This document shows positions 1-7,039 of a stretch of DNA of 64,000 bases, piece by piece. Position 1 is the first letter of the stretch. Each line of letters begins with the position of its first letter. Made by a program: the position numbers and the translations under genes. Origin of the DNA: Blautia hansenii (lineage in GTDB: Bacteria > Bacillota > Clostridia > Lachnospirales > Lachnospiraceae); NCBI RefSeq assembly GCF_013304445.1, contig NZ_JAAITA010000003.1, positions 1-64,000 on the forward strand, in the 5' to 3' direction. The notes beneath the pieces were generated by a model. That model was not told the DNA's origin. It ran no database searches and worked only from the letters and a program-made list of their open reading frames with translations.

Positions 1-522
1 CGCCTTGCATATGGAACAATTATTCTACGTCAATATAGCAGAAACTTAGTATTCGCTGTACTAGATAAAATTCAGAGAATAAGAATAGAAAACAACACAA
101 ATGTGTACCGGAAATTAACCGGATTATCCTATCCGCACCCGAGTTCGTATGATGAGGCGATAGATAAGCTGACGGATAAAAAGAATGAAATTGAGATTGC
201 TGCAAAAGAGGCTGATAAGTGGCGTGAGGTGGCTAGTGTTGCCAAGGCGGAAATGGAATACGCGCAGTTTGAACTGGCAGAGGCAGAACGGCTTAAAAAG
301 GAGTTGCTGGGAGTTGTGGATGGCGATTCGTACCGAAAGGAGCAGGTAATAGAATTGCGGTATCAGAATCATGTGTTGGAAGAGGAAAATAAGACGCTTA
401 AGGATAAGCTGGAAAAGGCGTATGAGTTTATGAAACAGTTTGTGATTGGTGGGATGAATTTGTTGGAGAAGTTTAAGGAATGGATTGGCGAGAAGGTTAG
501 AGATGTGGGGAGAGGAAGATAA
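1..522 (+). CDS. Mob/Pre-like plasmid recombination protein, C-terminal part (5' end outside window)
   Basis: The frame is open from base 1, so this is the end of a protein that starts upstream; a GTG at 103 lacks a ribosome binding site and is unlikely to be the true start. The visible 173 residues are charged and strongly helical, with a long coiled coil, and end in a segment (YEFMKQFVIGGMNLLEKF) that I associate with the C-termini of MobV/Pre relaxases of Firmicute mobile elements. The relaxase catalytic domain would lie outside the window. Its position at the edge of a restriction-modification island fits a mobilisable element. The family call rests on the tail only and is tentative; a different coiled-coil protein cannot be excluded. 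Confidence 0.5.
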   Translation, partial: RLAYGTIILRQYSRNLVFAVLDKIQRIRIENNTNVYRKLTGLSYPHPSSYDEAIDKLTDKKNEIEIAAKEADKWREVASVAKAEMEYAQFELAEAERLKKELLGVVDGDSYRKEQVIELRYQNHVLEEENKTLKDKLEKAYEFMKQFVIGGMNLLEKFKEWIGEKVRDVGRGR

Positions 523-545: not shown

Positions 546-1205
546 TTAATCTTCAAGGGATGTAATATATTTCATAAATTCCTTTTTAAAGTAAAATGCC
601 CTGTTTTTATCAGATATTTCCCGGCCATAAATATTGGAATATATAGGATGATATGGCTTTGAATCCTTTGTACGAATTTGGATAAATTCACCGCTTGCGG
701 TATGTAAAGTTGCTCTGCTGGATTCAGATAATTGTTGATTTAACTGGTCGCAGATGTTGTAATAGTCTGCTTCAAGTTGCTGGGCAAGAGCTTGATATTT
801 AGGTAGAGATAGGTCTATCTGAATTGGAGCTAGGTACATCCAATCTGCTGGATTTCCGTCCTTGTTGATGGGCACATATAATAAACGCTGGAATTTCTTA
901 TATAATTTTGTTTCTTGAAATCTGCGCTTGGATAATAACTCGTCGATAATAGAGGCGGTTTGCGTGATAAACATTGTCTCTAAAGGTTTGCCGGTTCGGT
1001 CGCATTTGTTGGTTTTTAGTTCTCCGTCCTCAAAATCAAGGGTTGTATTAGAAAGGTTTAATCCAATGGTCAGTTCTAAAAGTTGCCCAGTTTTCCCTTT
1101 ATTGATTTTCATCATAGCATCTTGGACTTGGTCGGGTGACAAATATTCTTTGAACGGAATATAAGCAAGTTTCTCTATTCTTGTTTGCGCTTCAATAAGT
1201 TTCAT
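546..1205 (-). CDS. MutH/Sau3AI-like GATC endonuclease
   Basis: Protein of 219 residues, the size of MutH (about 229) and about half of Sau3AI, which has two such domains. Residues 56-78 carry the family's catalytic signature: D57, then E62-L-K64 in GELKT, followed by GKPLET as in MutH. The C-terminal part (about 169-210) has SGEFIQIR and RAFYFKKEF, matching the MutH end (GEYLQIRPK...RGFYLK). Known members cut or nick at GATC, so GATC is the expected target. The start overlaps the stop of the controller-type gene by four bases, which implies translational coupling and a C-R operon. Adenine methylases that should protect GATC lie on the other strand. A role in mismatch repair is unlikely, because mutL and mutS are absent and the neighbours are R-M genes. 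Confidence 0.82.
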   Translation of the reverse strand: MKLIEAQTRIEKLAYIPFKEYLSPDQVQDAMMKINKGKTGQLLELTIGLNLSNTTLDFEDGELKTNKCDRTGKPLETMFITQTASIIDELLSKRRFQETKLYKKFQRLLYVPINKDGNPADWMYLAPIQIDLSLPKYQALAQQLEADYYNICDQLNQQLSESSRATLHTASGEFIQIRTKDSKPYHPIYSNIYGREISDKNRAFYFKKEFMKYITSLED

Positions 1206-1444
1206 GATTCAGACACCTCCTTGAAAAATTCGCTAATCTCAACATTAAGTACATTAGCAATCTGATTTAAAACAGATATGGACAAGCTTTTATTGCATCC
1301 GGCAGCTTCGATTTTGGAAAGATAGCTGATGCTGATTTGAGCTTGCTCTGCGAGTTGTACCTGTGTTAATTTTCTTTGTTCTCTGTAATACTTTATATTC
1401 GCACCTATAACACGGTATAGGTCAGTATCGTTGTTGAAATGCAT
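1202..1444 (-). CDS. controller (C) protein-like XRE HTH regulator
   Basis: An 80-residue protein that is almost entirely one helix-turn-helix domain (residues about 10-70: IKYYREQRKLTQVQLAEQA, then SISYLSKIEAAG). Size, single-domain build and the four-base overlap into a downstream restriction endonuclease gene are the hallmarks of C proteins of type II R-M systems, which delay endonuclease expression until methylation is established. Two copies of TTCAC-N5-GTGAA bracket its promoter and a third lies before the methylase promoter, so it probably binds these. A plain XRE repressor is the alternative. The C-protein role is inferred from context. Confidence 0.8.
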   Translation of the reverse strand: MHFNNDTDLYRVIGANIKYYREQRKLTQVQLAEQAQISISYLSKIEAAGCNKSLSISVLNQIANVLNVEISEFFKEVSES

Positions 1445-1456
1445 ACAAACACCTCT

Positions 1457-1516
1457 TTCACTATTTGTGAATATTATCTCATGAGAGCGGTTTTATATAA
1501 ATTCACTTATTGTGAA
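1457..1516 (-). promoter_or_regulatory. C/R operon promoter flanked by two TTCAC-N5-GTGAA operators
   Basis: Two palindromes, TTCAC-tattt-GTGAA (1457-1471) and TTCAC-ttatt-GTGAA (1502-1516), flank a minus-strand promoter with -35 TTTATA (1496-1501), a 17-base spacer and -10 GATAAT (1473-1478). The distal operator touches the -35 on its upstream side, where an activator would sit. The proximal one lies just beyond the -10 over the start site, where a repressor would sit. This is the layout of autoregulated C-protein promoters. The distal copy may also affect plus-strand transcription toward 1590. Confidence 0.65.
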
Positions 1517-1589
1517 ACGAAATAGAGGTAGATTTTATAGAAAAGTTGGTGTAAACTTATTTCTATCATCAGAAAAAGAGGTGCAAGTA

Positions 1590-1784
1590 ATGAAGGCAAT
1601 TCAAGAGGAAAAATTTGAATATGAGAAATTTATGGTTGAATTAGCTCATAAGGCTCAGGAGACGCAAAAGGATTTTGATAAGTTATCAGAAGCAAATAAG
1701 GCAAGAGTAATAAATGAATTGGAAAAGGTACTTGCTGCACGTGGATTGGCTGGTGTTATGGAACATATTAATAGAATGAAATAA
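1590..1784 (+). CDS. small helical protein of the R-M island, function unknown
   Basis: I do not recognise this 64-residue protein. The start is taken at 1590 because AGAGGTG precedes it at proper spacing, whereas a GTG at 1512 lies inside an operator and has no ribosome binding site. It is charged, predicted fully helical (KAIQEEKFEYEKFMVEL... ending EHINRMK) and has no cysteine or membrane segment. It is divergent from the C/R operon and ends 18 bases before the first methylase, so it is probably co-transcribed with that gene. A regulatory or accessory role in the R-M locus is possible but unsupported. Confidence 0.6.
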   Translation: MKAIQEEKFEYEKFMVELAHKAQETQKDFDKLSEANKARVINELEKVLAARGLAGVMEHINRMK

Positions 1785-1802
1785 GAAGAGGAGGAATGTC
1801 TT

Positions 1803-2525
1803 ATTAGTTTACAACCAAATAATTTTAAGATAGAACCAACGACGGTCTGGTCGTTTCCGGACAGAGGCAGTTGGGCAACGCATTCAGGAAAGTATCGAGG
1901 GAATTGGTCACCATATGTGCCAAGAAATTTGATACTTCGCTATTCTAATCCTGGTGAGTGGGTCTTAGATCAGTTTATGGGTAGTGGAACAACCTTAGTT
2001 GAGGCAAAACTACTTAATCGCAATGCGGTAGGTGTTGACATCAATCCGCAATCTGTTTCAATCTCTGAAACAAATTTACAATTCCAATGTGAAACAAATT
2101 CAAAAATTTTTACACGAAATGGTAATGCTACTGAGTTACATTTTATCAAAGATAGTCATATCGATTTTATCTGTACGCATCCGCCTTATGCCAATATCAT
2201 CAAGTATAGTAAAGGAATAGAAGGGGATATTTCTTTGCTGGGTGTAGATGAGTTTTTGGCTGAAATGTGTAAGGTGGCTGAAGAATCTTATCGCGTACTG
2301 AAAAAGGGTAAAATGTGTGCTGTGATGATAGGGGATGTAAGAAAATATGGGAAGATTATTCCGTTAGGATTTCGTATGATGGAATGTTTTTTACGGGCAG
2401 GATTTACGAATAAAGAGATTATTATTAAGGAGCAACATAATTGCCGCTCTACAGATTATTGGGAGAAACAGAACAATAGTTTTCTCCTACTGGCACATGA
2501 GTACATATTTGTGTTTCAAAAGTAA
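1803..2525 (+). CDS. DNA methyltransferase (N4/N6 amino-methylase type), probable ATT start
   Basis: SAM-dependent methylase of about 240 residues. Motif I is FMGSGTT (residues 58-64) and the catalytic tetrad is HPPY (126-129), in the order I then IV. No ATG, GTG or TTG initiates the conserved N-terminal part (TTVWSFPDRGSWATHSG). The only start placed correctly behind the strong AGGAGG (1789-1794) is ATT at 1803, eight bases away. The ATG at 1796 is too close and meets a stop after three codons. A later GTG at 1917 would delete 38 conserved-looking residues. The target is probably part of the same R-M system, but its specificity cannot be read. A small sequence change at the original start is the alternative to a genuine ATT start. 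Confidence 0.75.
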   Translation: MSLQPNNFKIEPTTVWSFPDRGSWATHSGKYRGNWSPYVPRNLILRYSNPGEWVLDQFMGSGTTLVEAKLLNRNAVGVDINPQSVSISETNLQFQCETNSKIFTRNGNATELHFIKDSHIDFICTHPPYANIIKYSKGIEGDISLLGVDEFLAEMCKVAEESYRVLKKGKMCAVMIGDVRKYGKIIPLGFRMMECFLRAGFTNKEIIIKEQHNCRSTDYWEKQNNSFLLLAHEYIFVFQK

Positions 2526-2530
2526 ATTAA

Positions 2531-2582
2531 TTCACAAAGAGTGAAAGTTCTGGTTGTTATTTTGTATGTTTGCAAGTATAAT
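2531..2582 (+). promoter_or_regulatory. DpnM-like methylase promoter with third TTCAC-N5-GTGAA operator
   Basis: The promoter has -35 TTGTTA (2554-2559), a 17-base spacer and a perfect -10 TATAAT (2577-2582), about 50 bases before the methylase start. The palindrome TTCAC-aaaga-GTGAA (2531-2545) ends eight bases upstream of the -35. The same palindrome flanks the C/R promoter, so one regulator probably controls both endonuclease and methylase. Confidence 0.7.
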
Positions 2583-2631: not shown

Positions 2632-3465
2632 ATGAGTAATTCGAGAGTCGCTCCATTTGTGAAATGGGCTGGCGGAAAGCGTCAGTTGCTTCCACAGATA
2701 AAGGAGAGAATGCCTGAAAAATATAATAATTATTTTGAGCCGTTTGTAGGTGGTGGCGCGGTGATATTCGAATTGCTACCTGCAAATGCTCTGATAAACG
2801 ATATCAACAAAGCATTGATAAATGCCTATAAGCAGATATGTAATGCACCGGAGGCATTTCTAAAGGCTGTAAAGAAGCTGGATGAGGAAATGTGTGAAGA
2901 TGGAAAAGAGTATTACTATTCTCTTAGGGAGCATTACAATGATAAGCTAATGAAAGCGGAGTTTGATGTTGAGTTGGCTGCATTGTTTGTATTTATCAAT
3001 AAGCACTGTTTTAATGGCTTGTATCGTGTAAATGGCAAGGGACTTTTCAATGTTCCGTACAACAATAGTCGTAGAGCTTCCGTGGATGAAAATGCCATCA
3101 TGGAGATTTCAAAATATCTTCAGGGGGTAAATATTATTGATGGAGATTTTGAAGTTGCCTGTAAGGATGCCAAGAAGGGCGATTTTGTATTTATAGACAG
3201 TCCGTATGCACCGTTGAACCCAACTTCGTTTGAATCATATACGAAAGAGGGATTTGATATAGAAAGTCATAAACGACTTGCGAAGTTATTTGATGAATTA
3301 ACAGCCAGAGGTTGCTACTGTATGCTCACAAACCATAATACAGACTTGATAAATGAACTGTATGGTAACAAAGGCTACAGAATAGATGTTGTAAGTGTTA
3401 AGCGTATGATTAATTCGGATGCATCCAACAGAGTTGGTGAAGAAGTAATTATATGCAATTATTAA
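2632..3465 (+). CDS. DpnM-like DNA adenine methylase (Dam family, GATC)
   Basis: A 277-residue D12-class adenine N6-methylase. The N-terminal PFVKWAGGKRQLLPQI (residues 8-23) and FEPFVGGGAVIFEL (35-48) are the Dam/DpnM SAM-binding motifs. The catalytic tetrad at 189-192 reads DSPY rather than DPPY, within FVFIDSPYAPLNPTSF, which is otherwise standard for this family. Family members methylate the adenine of GATC in duplex DNA, which would protect against the MutH-like and DpnII-like nucleases. It is first in a run with the DpnA-like methylase 13 bases downstream and the broken DpnII gene, the gene order of the pneumococcal DpnII cassette. Confidence 0.88.
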   Translation: MSNSRVAPFVKWAGGKRQLLPQIKERMPEKYNNYFEPFVGGGAVIFELLPANALINDINKALINAYKQICNAPEAFLKAVKKLDEEMCEDGKEYYYSLREHYNDKLMKAEFDVELAALFVFINKHCFNGLYRVNGKGLFNVPYNNSRRASVDENAIMEISKYLQGVNIIDGDFEVACKDAKKGDFVFIDSPYAPLNPTSFESYTKEGFDIESHKRLAKLFDELTARGCYCMLTNHNTDLINELYGNKGYRIDVVSVKRMINSDASNRVGEEVIICNY

Positions 3466-3478
3466 AGGGGTCGGGATA

Positions 3479-4282
3479 ATGGAAAACTTGTTTACAAAAA
3501 AAGTGCTATTATACTTCGAGACAGAAGAATCACAATTGATATTAGGTGATTCCTTTAAAATTCTAACAAAAATGGAACCGGAATCTGTGGATATGATATT
3601 TGCGGACCCACCATACTTTTTAAGTAATGATGGCATCACCTGTCAGGGCGGGAAAATGGTTTCAGTAAATAAAGGCTCATGGGATAAGCTTTCAGAAAGT
3701 GGAACCAGTGTCGAAGAGAAACACAAGTTTAACAGAAAGTGGATTAAGTTATGTAAGAAAGTACTAAAGCCGAACGGCACGATTTGGATATCGGGAACAT
3801 TACACAATATATATTCGATTGGTATGGCATTGGAGCAGGAAGGCTTCAAGATAATCAACAACATAACATGGCAGAAAACAAATCCACCACCAAACTTAGC
3901 ATGTCGATGCTTCACACATTCTACGGAAACCATTTTATGGGCAAAGAAGAATGAAAAGAAGTCTCGGCATTTTTTTAATTATCAAAAAATGAAAGAAATG
4001 AATGATGGTAAGCAGATGAAGGATGTGTGGACTGGTACGTTAACCAAACCTTCAGAGAAAACAGAGGGAAAGCACCCTACACAAAAGCCGGAATATCTGC
4101 TTGAAAAAATTGTATTGTCATCTACGGAGGAAGGACAAGTGATACTGGATCCTTTTTGTGGTTCCGGAACTACCGGAGTAGAGGCTGTGCGATTTGGGCG
4201 GAAGTTTATTGGAATAGATATAAGTGAAGAATACTTGGAAATATCAAGGAAAAGATTGGAGAAGGCAGCAAATGATAAATAG
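3479..4282 (+). CDS. DpnA-like DNA adenine methylase
   Basis: A 267-residue beta-class amino-methylase. The catalytic DPPY lies at 43-46 (FADPPYFLSNDG) and the SAM motif DPFCGSGTT at about 224-232, the IV-before-I order of PF01555 enzymes. The segment NNITWQKTNPPPNL and the final motif match M.DpnIIB/DpnA. In Streptococcus, DpnA methylates GATC in single-stranded DNA and protects incoming transforming DNA. Here it follows the DpnM-like gene and overlaps the start of the DpnII-like remnant by 11 bases, as in a dpnM-dpnA-dpnB operon. Confidence 0.87.
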   Translation: MENLFTKKVLLYFETEESQLILGDSFKILTKMEPESVDMIFADPPYFLSNDGITCQGGKMVSVNKGSWDKLSESGTSVEEKHKFNRKWIKLCKKVLKPNGTIWISGTLHNIYSIGMALEQEGFKIINNITWQKTNPPPNLACRCFTHSTETILWAKKNEKKSRHFFNYQKMKEMNDGKQMKDVWTGTLTKPSEKTEGKHPTQKPEYLLEKIVLSSTEEGQVILDPFCGSGTTGVEAVRFGRKFIGIDISEEYLEISRKRLEKAANDK

Positions 4283-4821
4283 AGATTTTGATGAATGGTT
4301 GAGCAAGTTTAGACCGAGTATATCAAGTTATGATTACTATATCGACTTTGAAAAAGTTGTAAGAAATGTAGAAGAAATCAAGGTGGAATTGAATATTTTG
4401 AACTCCTTGATAGGTTCAAAAAACATAGAGGAAGACTTTGAGAGAATAGCGACAAAGTATCCGGAAACATTGCGATGTGTTCCGTCACTTCTTGCGGTAA
4501 GAGGTTATGAAATATATGCGCAGGATGAAGATGGTGCATTCTTGTATAATTTCAAGAAGATGAATTATAGCGTGGAGCAGTACAAAGTATTCATGCGTAA
4601 GACCGGATTGTTTGATATGATTGCTAATCATCTGGTAAATAATCTTGTTGATTACGCTCTCGGTATTGAAACTGGATTGGATTCTAATGGTCGCAAGAAT
4701 CGTGGTGGTCATCAGATGGAAGAGTGCAAGAGGTAATCTGAGAGAGACATTCGAAGTCATGGATACGATTTATAGTATTGATGATATGGAGAATAGGGTA
4801 ATGGAAAAGGTATTTGTATAA
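4272..4821 (+). pseudogene. DpnII-type restriction endonuclease, broken by internal deletion and frameshift
   Basis: The N-terminal part (from ATG 4272: INRDFDEWLSKFRPSISSYD) resembles R.DpnII (about 288 residues) and remains in frame to TGLDSNGRKNRGGHQME near 4720. It then reads only four more residues to a stop at 4736. In another frame, starting near 4723, the C-terminal end of the family resumes (SARGNLRETFEVMDTIYSI) and finishes at 4821. The middle of the protein, which carries the nuclease core, is therefore missing. At the joint the bases TGGAA can be read in both frames, so a short-homology deletion is plausible. No active DpnII product is expected. Confidence 0.78.
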
Positions 4822-4860
4822 AGAATATTTGACGACAAGTGTATGGAAGGAGAGACGATT

Positions 4861-5040
4861 ATGTTTGGAAACAATAAAAATGATAAAAAACCCATTATTC
4901 AAGCGAGTGGCTATAATGGAAGTGAACCCATATGTATATGCCCGAATTGCAGAAAGGAAAATCCACTTAGTGAATTTGGATGCAGAAATATGGGAGATGG
5001 AAATGTAAGAAATCAATCATGGTGTAAAAGTTGTAGGTGA
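4861..5040 (+). CDS. small zinc-ribbon-like protein
   Basis: A 59-residue protein. ATG 4861 is chosen because AAGGAGAG ends seven bases upstream. The C-terminal half carries cysteine pairs CICPNC and WCKSC with another Cys between them, which suggests a small zinc ribbon. There is no catalytic domain and I do not recognise the family. It follows the DpnII remnant and precedes another unknown small gene by six bases, so the two may form a short operon of the mobile island. Confidence 0.55.
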   Translation: MFGNNKNDKKPIIQASGYNGSEPICICPNCRKENPLSEFGCRNMGDGNVRNQSWCKSCR

Positions 5041-5462: not shown

Positions 5463-5483
5463 AAGTGTACCAGAAGTGTACCA
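5463..5483 (+). repeat. tandem AAGTGTACCA 10-mers (possible integrase arm sites)
   Basis: Two identical 10-mers, AAGTGTACCA, at 5463-5472 and 5474-5483 repeat every 11 bases, one turn of the helix. Paired short direct repeats next to a hairpin are typical of tyrosine-integrase arm sites at the ends of integrated elements. No integrase gene is present in the window, so this is inference. Confidence 0.45.
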
Positions 5484-5655
5484 CATTCCAAAATTATAGG
5501 CCTTTTTGTGCATTTTGCCGTAAACGCAAAATAGCGAGTACCTTGATATTTTTGAATGATTATTCCGGATGGTTTTCCATCAGCTGCCCGGTGATATGAA
5601 AATCACTTTTTAGATCCGCTTTTGTGCATACCGAATTATAATTTCCTCTGGGACA

Positions 5656-5702
5656 TTGGTAAAGACTACTGCGCACCGCAGATGCGGCAAGGTCTTGACC
5701 AA
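5656..5702. promoter_or_regulatory. interrupted inverted repeat upstream of pucR-type gene
   Basis: TTGGT-a-AAGAC (5656-5666) and GTCTT-g-ACCAA (5692-5702) form an 11-base inverted repeat with a single central mismatch, separated by 25 bases. It ends 84 bases before the regulator start. It could be an operator, possibly autoregulatory, or an RNA stem. Confidence 0.4.
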
Positions 5703-5785
5703 TATGCTATTATAAAATAACGAAAAATACTGAAAGGATTATTGTGATATATCGGTTGCGATATAGATGCAAAGGTGAGGAACAG

Positions 5786-7039
5786 ATGAATTGCGAAGAT
5801 ATGGTTAAGATACCTGAATTAAAAGGCGTATTGAACTTGAAAGCCGGGGCAGAGGGGATGCTTCATCCGATAAGATGGATATATTTTGCTGACTGCCTTC
5901 AGTGCGTTAAGAATGAGTATCGTGTTGAGGATTATATACATGGCAGTGAATTCGTGGTGCTTACTAACAGGAGCCTCACAGATGACAGCACAAGACTAAG
6001 AGAATTAATCAGCAAAATGCAGGAATATGACATAGCTGCACTGGGAATCAATGAAGGGCAGATATCGGACGAACTTACAGACTATTGTAATGAACACAGT
6101 CTTCCATTGTTTGAGCTGACAGAGAAATTCCCGCTTGTGGATTTGAGCCAGATAATGTGCCAGCGGCTTGTCCTTGAGCAGAATAATAAGAATTCAGCCG
6201 AGCAGTTATTTACATCTATTCTGGATGCTGAGCATCTTAACAGAGAAAATGTATTTGCACAGGCAAGATTTTTAAATGTTGATTTGTCAGGAGAATTCCG
6301 TGTTATAGAATTTGCTTACTATAAAGATAAGAATAATTATGATGAAGGCGGATATGAGACTGGCAGACCCGATGGGGGAATGCATCGTGATGATTCACTT
6401 ACAGTCGGTCAGTCAATAAGCAGGATTATCAGCACAGAATTTTCATATCATCTGTCTAAGAATATTCTTGTACGGTTACAGACTGGTACAGTTCTTGCAT
6501 TAGTTCCATCTGGCAGGATAAGCGATGAACAGTTAAGAGAAATTCTTGGCAATATAGTAGATATTGCGGGCCGTGAGTATCACACTAACCTCTATGTAGG
6601 AGTTGGTAACAGCACAGGCTATCTTGAGGATGTGAAGCTCAGCCGTAATGAAGCATCTGCTGCAATTAAAGTCGCGAATATTTCTAAAGCGGATGAACAC
6701 ATATATTTTTACAAAGACCAGGGCTTGTATACATTAATATCAAAGATTGCAGATGATAAATTCTTAGATGAATTCGTTGAGAAAAATATAGGAAAGCTTA
6801 TTCACGCAGATGAGGTCAATGATGGCAATCTGTGCGATACACTTGAAAATTATCTCAACCACAACTGCAATGTGAAATATACAGCAGAATCAATGTATAT
6901 TCACCGCAACACCTTGAATTACCGCCTGAACAAGATTCAGGAAATCTTAGGCAGGGAATTTGATGATATAGAAAGCTGTCTGACTTTAAAACTTGCATTT
7001 ATGATAAGAAATTACCGTAAAATGCGCCGTGAAATATAG
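5786..7039 (+). CDS. PucR-family transcriptional regulator of the GABA cassette
   Basis: A 417-residue protein starting at ATG 5786 behind AAAGGTGAGG. The N-terminal about 120 residues form a PucR sensor domain (KIPELKGVLNLKAGAEGML). The middle is a degenerate GGDEF-like region (LYVGVGNSTGYLEDVKLS). The C-terminal about 60 residues are the PucR-type helix-turn-helix (YTAESMYIHRNTLNYRLNKI). Members commonly activate purine or amino-acid catabolic genes in response to a metabolite. Immediately downstream, on the same strand, are the GABA aminotransferase, transporter and dehydrogenase, so it probably senses GABA or a derivative. The effector is inferred from the neighbours only. Confidence 0.85.
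   Translation: MNCEDMVKIPELKGVLNLKAGAEGMLHPIRWIYFADCLQCVKNEYRVEDYIHGSEFVVLTNRSLTDDSTRLRELISKMQEYDIAALGINEGQISDELTDYCNEHSLPLFELTEKFPLVDLSQIMCQRLVLEQNNKNSAEQLFTSILDAEHLNRENVFAQARFLNVDLSGEFRVIEFAYYKDKNNYDEGGYETGRPDGGMHRDDSLTVGQSISRIISTEFSYHLSKNILVRLQTGTVLALVPSGRISDEQLREILGNIVDIAGREYHTNLYVGVGNSTGYLEDVKLSRNEASAAIKVANISKADEHIYFYKDQGLYTLISKIADDKFLDEFVEKNIGKLIHADEVNDGNLCDTLENYLNHNCNVKYTAESMYIHRNTLNYRLNKIQEILGREFDDIESCLTLKLAFMIRNYRKMRREI

Follow-up and report, generated by a model that had tools for sequence, protein, structure and literature searches.

Three copies of one palindrome, found at a single locus of the genome, conserved at fixed positions in related bacteria and associated with the gene for an 80-residue helix-turn-helix protein, suggest that a putative mobile GATC restriction-modification island in Blautia hansenii is run by a controller (C) protein switch. 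We consider this reading probable; the binding, the order of events, and the signs of the promoters are those that we infer from the sequences compared. The island lies near the beginning of the 64,000-nucleotide stretch of DNA that was analyzed, hereafter called the window. In the proposed mechanism, the 80-aa C protein would bind TTCAC-N5-GTGAA as a dimer. On entry into a new cell, the promoters of the methylase gene M1 and of dpnM-dpnA would fire first, because C is not needed for them, and basal C would build up slowly; C would then occupy the distal box OL (center at about -43), compensating for the weak -35 element of the C-R promoter and starting a positive feedback that raises the endonuclease R, and at a higher level it would occupy the proximal box OR over the start site and cap both C and R. 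Through the box before dpnM (center at about -51), the same C protein would adjust the methylase operon. The island is a candidate gut Clostridia system in which one regulator is joined to different endonuclease-type genes, with a bearing on how restriction islands enter naive hosts.

Organization of the island

The C gene (1202..1444, minus strand) encodes an Xre/HTH_3 controller-type protein (PF01381, E = 7e-14; PADLOC Control_protein, E = 2e-8) that, at 80 aa, falls among the small single-domain Xre/HTH_3 proteins of about 75 to 100 aa. Its 3' end overlaps the start of R (546..1205, minus strand) by 4 nt, and the order of C before R is kept in those relatives that have R. R encodes a 219-aa MutH/Sau3AI-like nuclease with a conserved LDF-x-DGELK stretch, as judged from MutH models (E = 1e-15), conserved columns, and an AlphaFold model.

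Divergently from C lies M1 (1803..2525, plus strand), a 240-aa DNA methyltransferase with a THPPY motif (PADLOC MTase_II PDLC03376, E = 7e-94, and alignment), whose motifs we read in the order X-I-IV; its structure model was poor (mean pLDDT 55) and unusable. A 64-aa open reading frame between OL and M1 (1590..1784, plus strand) is present in only some relatives, being absent from the aligned regions of G191, G192, G171, and G028 and represented in L257 by a 41% relative. Downstream of M1, also on the plus strand, are a DpnM/Dam-family adenine methyltransferase gene (2632..3465; PF02086, E = 1e-59; TIGR00571, E = 2e-80), a methyltransferase gene (3479..4282; PF01555, E = 3e-63; PADLOC MTase_II, E = 2e-104) that we take to be DpnA-like from its position, and a truncated DpnII endonuclease gene of 154 aa (4272..4736), which covers PF04556 positions 1-152 of 278. 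DpnII measures 285 to 312 aa in seven relatives (L023, L025, L026, and L078-L081); as the gene is truncated here, the MutH-like R is the only intact-looking endonuclease gene of the island. The restriction-modification layout of the first-pass annotation, an HTH-endonuclease operon together with a DpnM-like gene, stands but was incomplete, having missed M1 and the truncation of DpnII; the methylase gene divergent from C is M1 and not dpnM.

Distribution of the palindrome in the genome

Exact TTCAC-N5-GTGAA occurs at 1457-1471, 1502-1516, and 2531-2545, just as first reported, and these are the only three exact copies in the window. The genome scan that had been proposed alongside this report found the palindrome not to be common: the 3,278,825-bp assembly (75 contigs; 3.28 Mb) holds three exact copies, all at this locus and inside 1.1 kb of the window, with no further exact copy in the rest of the 64 kb or of the assembly, and a control pattern read backward occurred once in the same assembly. 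Since the base composition of the window alone predicts about 3.4 exact matches per genome (0.07 per window), the genome-wide copy number is ordinary; the non-random feature is the clustering of all three copies in 1.1 kb, in promoter regions. When up to two mismatches were allowed, the window gave 35 matches against 31.7 expected, so only exact or one-mismatch copies are informative. A search for the box-pair pattern in 392 genomes of the order returned 8 with a pair, that of the window included, and all 8 pairs sit between C and M1. The palindromes might owe their presence to chance, or be a property of an unrelated host regulator, given that composition would supply about 3.4 exact matches per genome; set against their confinement to 1.1 kb and the way in which the boxes follow C across genera, the probability of this is negligible. 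A chance origin was rejected on the clustering and on the conservation with C.

Geometry of the predicted C-R promoter

On the minus strand, the predicted C-R promoter is arranged in the order OL (TTCACAATAAGTGAA, 1502..1516), a weak -35 element TTTATA (1496-1501, 4/6 matches in the window), the -10 hexamer GATAAT (1473..1478) with TGA upstream, and OR (TTCACAAATAGTGAA, 1457..1471); the extended -10 reads TGAGATAAT. OL covers about -50 to -36 and also lies upstream of the divergent M1 gene, and OR, an exact palindrome, covers about -5 to +10. The two boxes are 45 bp apart, center to center, with a 30-bp spacer that contains the -10. The earlier description of two copies flanking the promoter of the HTH-endonuclease operon, one at an activator position and the other at a repressor position, agrees with this arrangement, taken on the predicted promoter; relative to predicted start sites, it is the two-operator layout of C proteins, with a distal activator and a proximal repressor position.

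The same geometry recurs across relatives. In 32/32 box-bearing loci, a -10 element with at least 5/6 matches lies 22 to 23 bp from the end of OL (23 bp in 29 loci and 22 bp in 3), where the offset is the best within 18 to 27 bp with ties resolved toward 23. These loci are box-bearing by selection, the box-less L141 being excluded along with the copies L087, L097, L098, and L099 (of L077, L025, L024, and L026, respectively), and the near-identical pairs L082/L084 and L095/L096 remain among them. OR, at up to two mismatches, starts 1 to 4 bp past the -10 in 26/32 loci, covering the predicted start site, and is missing or degenerate in the other 6, which include the Tissierellia and Halanaerobiales loci; OL stands alone in Tissierellia (L131, L135, and L144) and Halanaerobiales (L150 and L151). 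The -35 element averages 2.7/6 matches across loci against a background of 1.65, weak yet above background. Spacing varies in L090, with 48 bp between box starts and added bases between the -10 and OR, and in L091, with 44 bp and one base fewer between OL and the -10. The positions, reckoned from predicted start sites, suit activation from OL and repression from OR, and both roles are likely. The natural variants (loss of OR, the 44- to 48-bp spacings, and R set apart with its own box) make the two roles directly testable.

C could instead be a plain Xre repressor that represses C-R through both OL and OR, and dpnM through its box, with no activation. CI-like phage Xre genes do have pairs of the same palindrome (L049 and L057), the good extended -10 and above-background -35 of C-R might work unaided, and OR covers the start site. 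The near-constant distance from OL to the -10 (22 to 23 bp in 32/32 loci) persists, however, while OR is missing or degenerate in 6/32, and the lineages with OL only retain it at the activator position. In the Halanaerobiales loci L150 and L151, moreover, R lies apart from C and yet has its own box (exact in L151, one mismatch in L150) at the same distance, with TACAAT 23 bp downstream and, in L151, also TATAAT at 18. This spacing is the one that the activator model predicts, so it counts for the activator reading, and these R genes are the best evidence that the box would drive R. We regard plain repression as unlikely and proceed with C as activator at OL and repressor at OR.

Association of the boxes with C

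A profile of C matched 43/397 family genomes and 11/398 phylum genomes at E values up to 1e-12, with at most 14 candidates scored per genome; the comparison kept 30 loci and left out 17 weaker family matches. Scores in the family are separated by a gap: 17 genomes reach E values of 1e-38 or better, whereas the others begin at 4e-23. All 17 of the close family orthologs have an exact OL box upstream of C, and OR is exact in 15, carries one mismatch in G192, and is absent in G088. OL is also found in one phylum genome (G914, locus L214; Halanaerobiales, C at E = 6e-24), seemingly the same locus as L151. No exact box was present within 200 bp of any of the 25 other, more distant Xre homologs examined, one of which has a one-mismatch copy at -169; these 25 include the 51% C-like gene of G200 (L243, E = 4e-23), which has no box, though L214 at a similar E value does.

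Relatives of R were matched in 8 of 397 family genomes (that of the window included), at 11 loci in IMG/VR, and by 90 relatives in a GTDB contig set, of which 80 were kept. At these 80 loci we counted C in 26, DpnM in 61, M1 in 43, DpnA in 39, and DpnII in 23, leaving out of the counts any C match below 45% identity (L159) and all methylase matches that were short or weak. The box was present at 25/26 R loci with C and at 0/54 without C (620,723 bases); the Fisher value of 7e-20 is overstated because the loci are related, and with many cut by contig ends as well, the 80 loci are not independent trials. The sole box-less C locus among the 26, L141 (57% C), lies on a contig that ends 103 bp upstream of C.

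This comparison supports a tie between the box and the 80-aa C protein, for which the box is a candidate docking site. The box alone is no proof of a C protein, because pairs of the same palindrome also adjoin apparent CI-type phage repressor (Xre) genes (L049:11196-11261 and L057:1303-1375). A viral double-box scan gave 38 stretches with mixed spacings; a C-like gene was found in L049 and L057 only (tblastn at E 1e-4, 37-41% identity), and open reading frames were inspected in 4 of the 38 (L035, L047, L049, and L057). We accordingly rejected the view that the palindrome is exclusive to C proteins. The proposal of control timed by a C protein, made at the outset, gains support from the 17/17 OL boxes, the 25/26 versus 0/54 contrast, and the geometry, with binding and timing following as the probable interpretation.

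The methylase side

The third box, OM (2531..2545, plus strand), is an exact palindrome whose center falls at about -51 of the predicted dpnM promoter (TTGTTA 2554-2559, TATAAT 2577-2582, plus strand). It lies 8 bp upstream of TTGTTA in the predicted TTGTTA-17-TATAAT promoter, bearing out the first-pass placement of a copy just before the -35 of the DpnM-like methylase. A scan of the 160 bp that precede dpnM, made at 73 loci, gave 15 exact boxes (10 in the M1-dpnM layout and 5 in the layout with C and dpnM divergent), 4 with one mismatch, all in the M1-dpnM layout, and 3 with two mismatches; these counts contain the copies L087 (of L077) and L099 (of L026). Five further exact boxes occur in L256, L257, L258, L259, and L262. 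In G192, G171, and G088, the dpnM box is missing or degenerate, and there is no exact copy in L260, L263, L086, L089, L093, or L101. The control scans gave 0/21 boxes at up to two mismatches upstream of DpnII; 1/38 exact (the L151 site, common to R) and one with two mismatches upstream of DpnA; and 1/33 exact upstream of R (L101, which lacks the start of R). The center of the dpnM box stands at -51 or -52 of the best predicted promoter in 15/15 loci measured; that of OL relative to the M1 promoter varies between loci. DpnII, in the relatives, lies downstream of dpnM and outside the C delay, which a simple timing account leaves unexplained.

If C mainly occupied the methylase promoter and thereby freed the divergent C promoter, as described for Kpn2I (PMC6237814), promoter competition rather than activation would explain the boxes. 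A single box over the -35 that scores best for the divergent dpnM promoter, a repressing position, in L131, L135, L144, and L151 speaks for this, as does the promoter scan in the window, which prefers an M1 promoter other than the one read by eye, and one that overlaps the box. With the M1 promoter read by eye, however, 12 bp separate OL from the -35 downstream of it, and the distance from OL to the -10 of C is fixed whatever the methylase side. Promoter competition may operate in the distant lineages, but as a general account we hold it to be quite improbable, and we retain activation through OL.

The apparent start codon of M1 in the window, in the region 1790-1811, is ATT. Across 24 distinct loci of the clade, the apparent start is ATA, ATT, or ATC in 22 (17, 4, and 1, respectively); the exceptions are L100, with ATG, and L143, which is not clear-cut. 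A few loci (L080, L093, and L099) have an ATG further up. These non-ATG starts mostly lie about 8 nt past a strong Shine-Dalgarno sequence, with an in-frame stop at most 14 codons upstream in 17/22. They could possibly act as a conserved translational throttle on a methylase.

Nature of R, GATC content, and mobility

MutH and Sau3AI are both GATC enzymes. The AlphaFold model of R found MutH bound to DNA as its best Foldseek match (2aor, E = 2e-11), followed by Sau3AI (7xm0, E = 4e-5), and the stretches LDF..GELKT, IR-x-K, and FY-x-KK of R align to MutH; the fold and the catalytic D..E-x-K motif place R in the MutH/Sau3AI-like superfamily on the predicted structure. Against the NCBIfam equivalog model of MutH itself, R scored 57.2 bits, below the cut-off of 243. 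A plasmid search gave one distant MutH match and a phage search gave 25 cyanophage matches of about 30% identity. In L101 (6875-7480), a single frame fuses the first ~50 residues of C to R from about residue 70, with the LDF..GELK stretch absent.

GATC is depleted in the window (25 observed versus 186 expected), where, of the 16 palindromic tetramers, CTAG is depleted most strongly, and in 40 kb elsewhere in the genome (48 versus 129). In sampled DNA, the median GATC ratio was 0.43 in 11 genomes with the system versus 0.84 in 16 without the box pair (p = 0.0095), with exceptions in G192 (0.00) and G028 (1.28) and several controls near 0.5; a seventeenth control, G008, gave no count, samples were below 7 kb for G153, G695, G207, and G060, and some DpnM-like gene was present in 4/14 control genomes searched. 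GATC would be the putative target of the island. The G192 loci (L181 and L182) contain no GATC in 33 kb versus 68.6 expected.

R can be modeled on the complex of MutH with hemimethylated DNA, and the alignment spans most of its length, so R might be a mismatch-repair enzyme that nicks in a methyl-directed manner, and what the boxes time might be repair. Its score of 57 bits against a cut-off of 243 speaks against this, as do the DpnM relative present at 61/80 R loci, the mobilization genes on some islands, the PD-(D/E)XK gene that takes the place of R in relatives, and the depletion of GATC in the window; we think a role in repair very improbable and treat R as a putative restriction endonuclease.

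At the contig edge, a gene segment (103..522, plus strand) encodes the end part of a Mob_Pre-type mobilization protein, 73% identical over 124 residues to an L258 protein and matching residues 303-426 of that Mob_Pre protein, which lies beside the same island. Mob_Pre genes also flank islands in L023, L025, and L256, as in L258, with integrases in L023 and L025 and rpsI in L025 and L259. Given the Mob_Pre end part at the contig edge, the island is probably carried by a mobile element, and since a mobile island must methylate before it cuts, a C switch would fit. Small proteins with CPxC and CxxC motifs, zinc-ribbon-like by eye, lie beside islands at 4843-5040 in the window and at L259:2273-2467, L262:6600-6764, and L263:6895-7158; the three scanned had no Pfam match. 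Some relatives have additional genes between dpnM, dpnA, and dpnII (L023:3947-4465, L023:2229-3125, and L256:8194-8808), and L023:2229-3125 encodes an Mrr_cat protein (PF04471).

Comparison with known C-protein and GATC systems

Like the DpnII/MboI GATC systems, the island holds DpnM-, DpnA-, and DpnII-type genes together; what sets it apart from them is a C protein with a second nuclease gene behind it and M1 as a third methylase. A literature search found no C control of DpnII systems. R resembles the MutH/Sau3AI nucleases in predicted fold and catalytic motif but differs in being 219 aa, lying behind a C gene, scoring below the MutH equivalog cut-off, and occurring with adenine-type methylases; Sau3AI-type systems use a 5mC methylase. 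Relatives of C in the PDB include SinR and C.BclI; the latter (2b5a, E = 1e-5) is the nearest named C protein of solved structure by sequence, although it belongs to another endonuclease, BclI. The operator class of C.BclI differs from TTCAC-N5-GTGAA. The canonical C-box class (GACT..AGTC, about 4 bp apart, bound by adjoining dimers) was rejected for this system on account of the TTCAC/GTGAA arms and the 45 bp between centers.

In the part of the Esp1396I work compared (PMC4041747), one C protein serves the operators OM, OL, and OR. The island is similar in its small HTH protein, in OL and OR at the C-R promoter, and in a third operator at a methylase promoter; the box sequence is different, OL and OR do not adjoin but lie 45 bp from each other on either side of the promoter, a methylase gene is divergent from C, and the dpnM box lies upstream of the -35 and not at the start site. 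Csp231I and EcoO109I, so far as the portions of PMC4321490 and PMC3115060 compared describe them, have 5-N5-5 boxes with OL/OR spacers of 18 and 25 bp, and activation in Csp231I proceeds through OL (PMC4824078, likewise in part). The island resembles these systems (Sorokin motif 8) in that its OL and OR are 5-N5-5 palindromes separated by a long spacer; the arms of motif 8, however, are CTAAG/CTTAG, and its 98-aa protein has extra C-terminal helices, against 80 aa here and a 30-bp spacer with the -10 inside. Membership in motif 8 (CTAAG-N5-CTTAG with a protein of about 98 aa) was rejected because the arms and the protein size differ, and none of the 48 PDB chains matched by the C profile at E up to 1 bears the depositor label C.Csp231I. 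Kpn2I (PMC6237814) likewise has divergent C and methylase genes with the control region between them, but its C protein binds inside its own gene and its R is independent of C; in the island, R follows C as the second gene, and the sites lie upstream of C.

The boxes of Mollicutes C proteins (PMC5282649) and of RptR (PMC12255303) have other sequences than TTCAC-N5-GTGAA in the parts of those papers compared, and no box in the corresponding parts of a review (PMC12707154) equals it. The literature search found no description of a C system with TTCAC-N5-GTGAA, though this operator may be among the ten motifs of a 2009 survey. The apparent operator class and the operator spacing are absent from the passages compared in the C-protein papers, and the comparison supports well the reading of the system as a variation on C-protein control.

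Genes following C

MutH and PDDEXK_11 belong to one nuclease superfamily. The gene after C in the 17 family genomes is MutH-like in 5 (G000, G191, G192, G171, and G028), PDDEXK_11-like with a PD...EKK motif in 6 (G153, G302, G339, G042, G224, and G088), and, in 5 others (G252, G122, G306, G183, and G106), a 203-aa gene that has no known relatives; in G172, it is a two-frame relative of the 176-aa second gene of G153. These four families behind C have no significant mutual similarity by BLAST (best E of 0.29). M1 and DpnM are kept in 16/16 family genomes with enough contig (that of G042 ends first). The coupling of C to a MutH/Sau3AI-like nuclease, which the first-pass annotation found unfamiliar, is seen in the gene order of the window, where R occupies the position; because different genes follow C in relatives, a MutH-like nuclease is not a fixed partner of C.

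One possible reading is that C and its boxes, together with the methylases, make up the constant control platform of a mobile GATC island, and that nucleases unrelated by sequence (MutH-like, PDDEXK_11-like, and 203-aa) but sharing a putative target alternate in one slot behind a common promoter. Of the 80 R loci, 6 have a PDDEXK_11-like gene near R, 2 have the 203-aa gene, and 18 have the 176-aa gene; L130 and L124 combine R with a PDDEXK_11-like gene as well as a 176-aa gene. Since R, PDDEXK_11-like, 203-aa, and 176-aa genes share islands, either exchange has taken place behind C or, more plainly, a longer ancestral run of these genes has been thinned differently, each lineage losing other members. 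Because some islands hold two or three such genes in tandem, we slightly lowered an already limited confidence in alternation in one slot, and we now consider it doubtful. If it were true, timing control would pass to whichever cutter lands behind C, and the 203-aa proteins would represent GATC nucleases of a new kind.

The switch in any case points to this 203-aa protein family behind C. Its members (L079:207-815, L256:5525-6133, L257:6282-6890, L258:5180-5785, L260:5260-5865, and L265:7352-7957) gave no useful match in Pfam, NCBIfam, or the PDB and have many invariant residues (RPNHLR...DL.LR). The 176-aa family, whose L078 copy (5472-6002) had no Pfam or PADLOC match, is the one present at 18/80 R loci and often adjoins R (L127, L130, L133, L134, L142, and L146).
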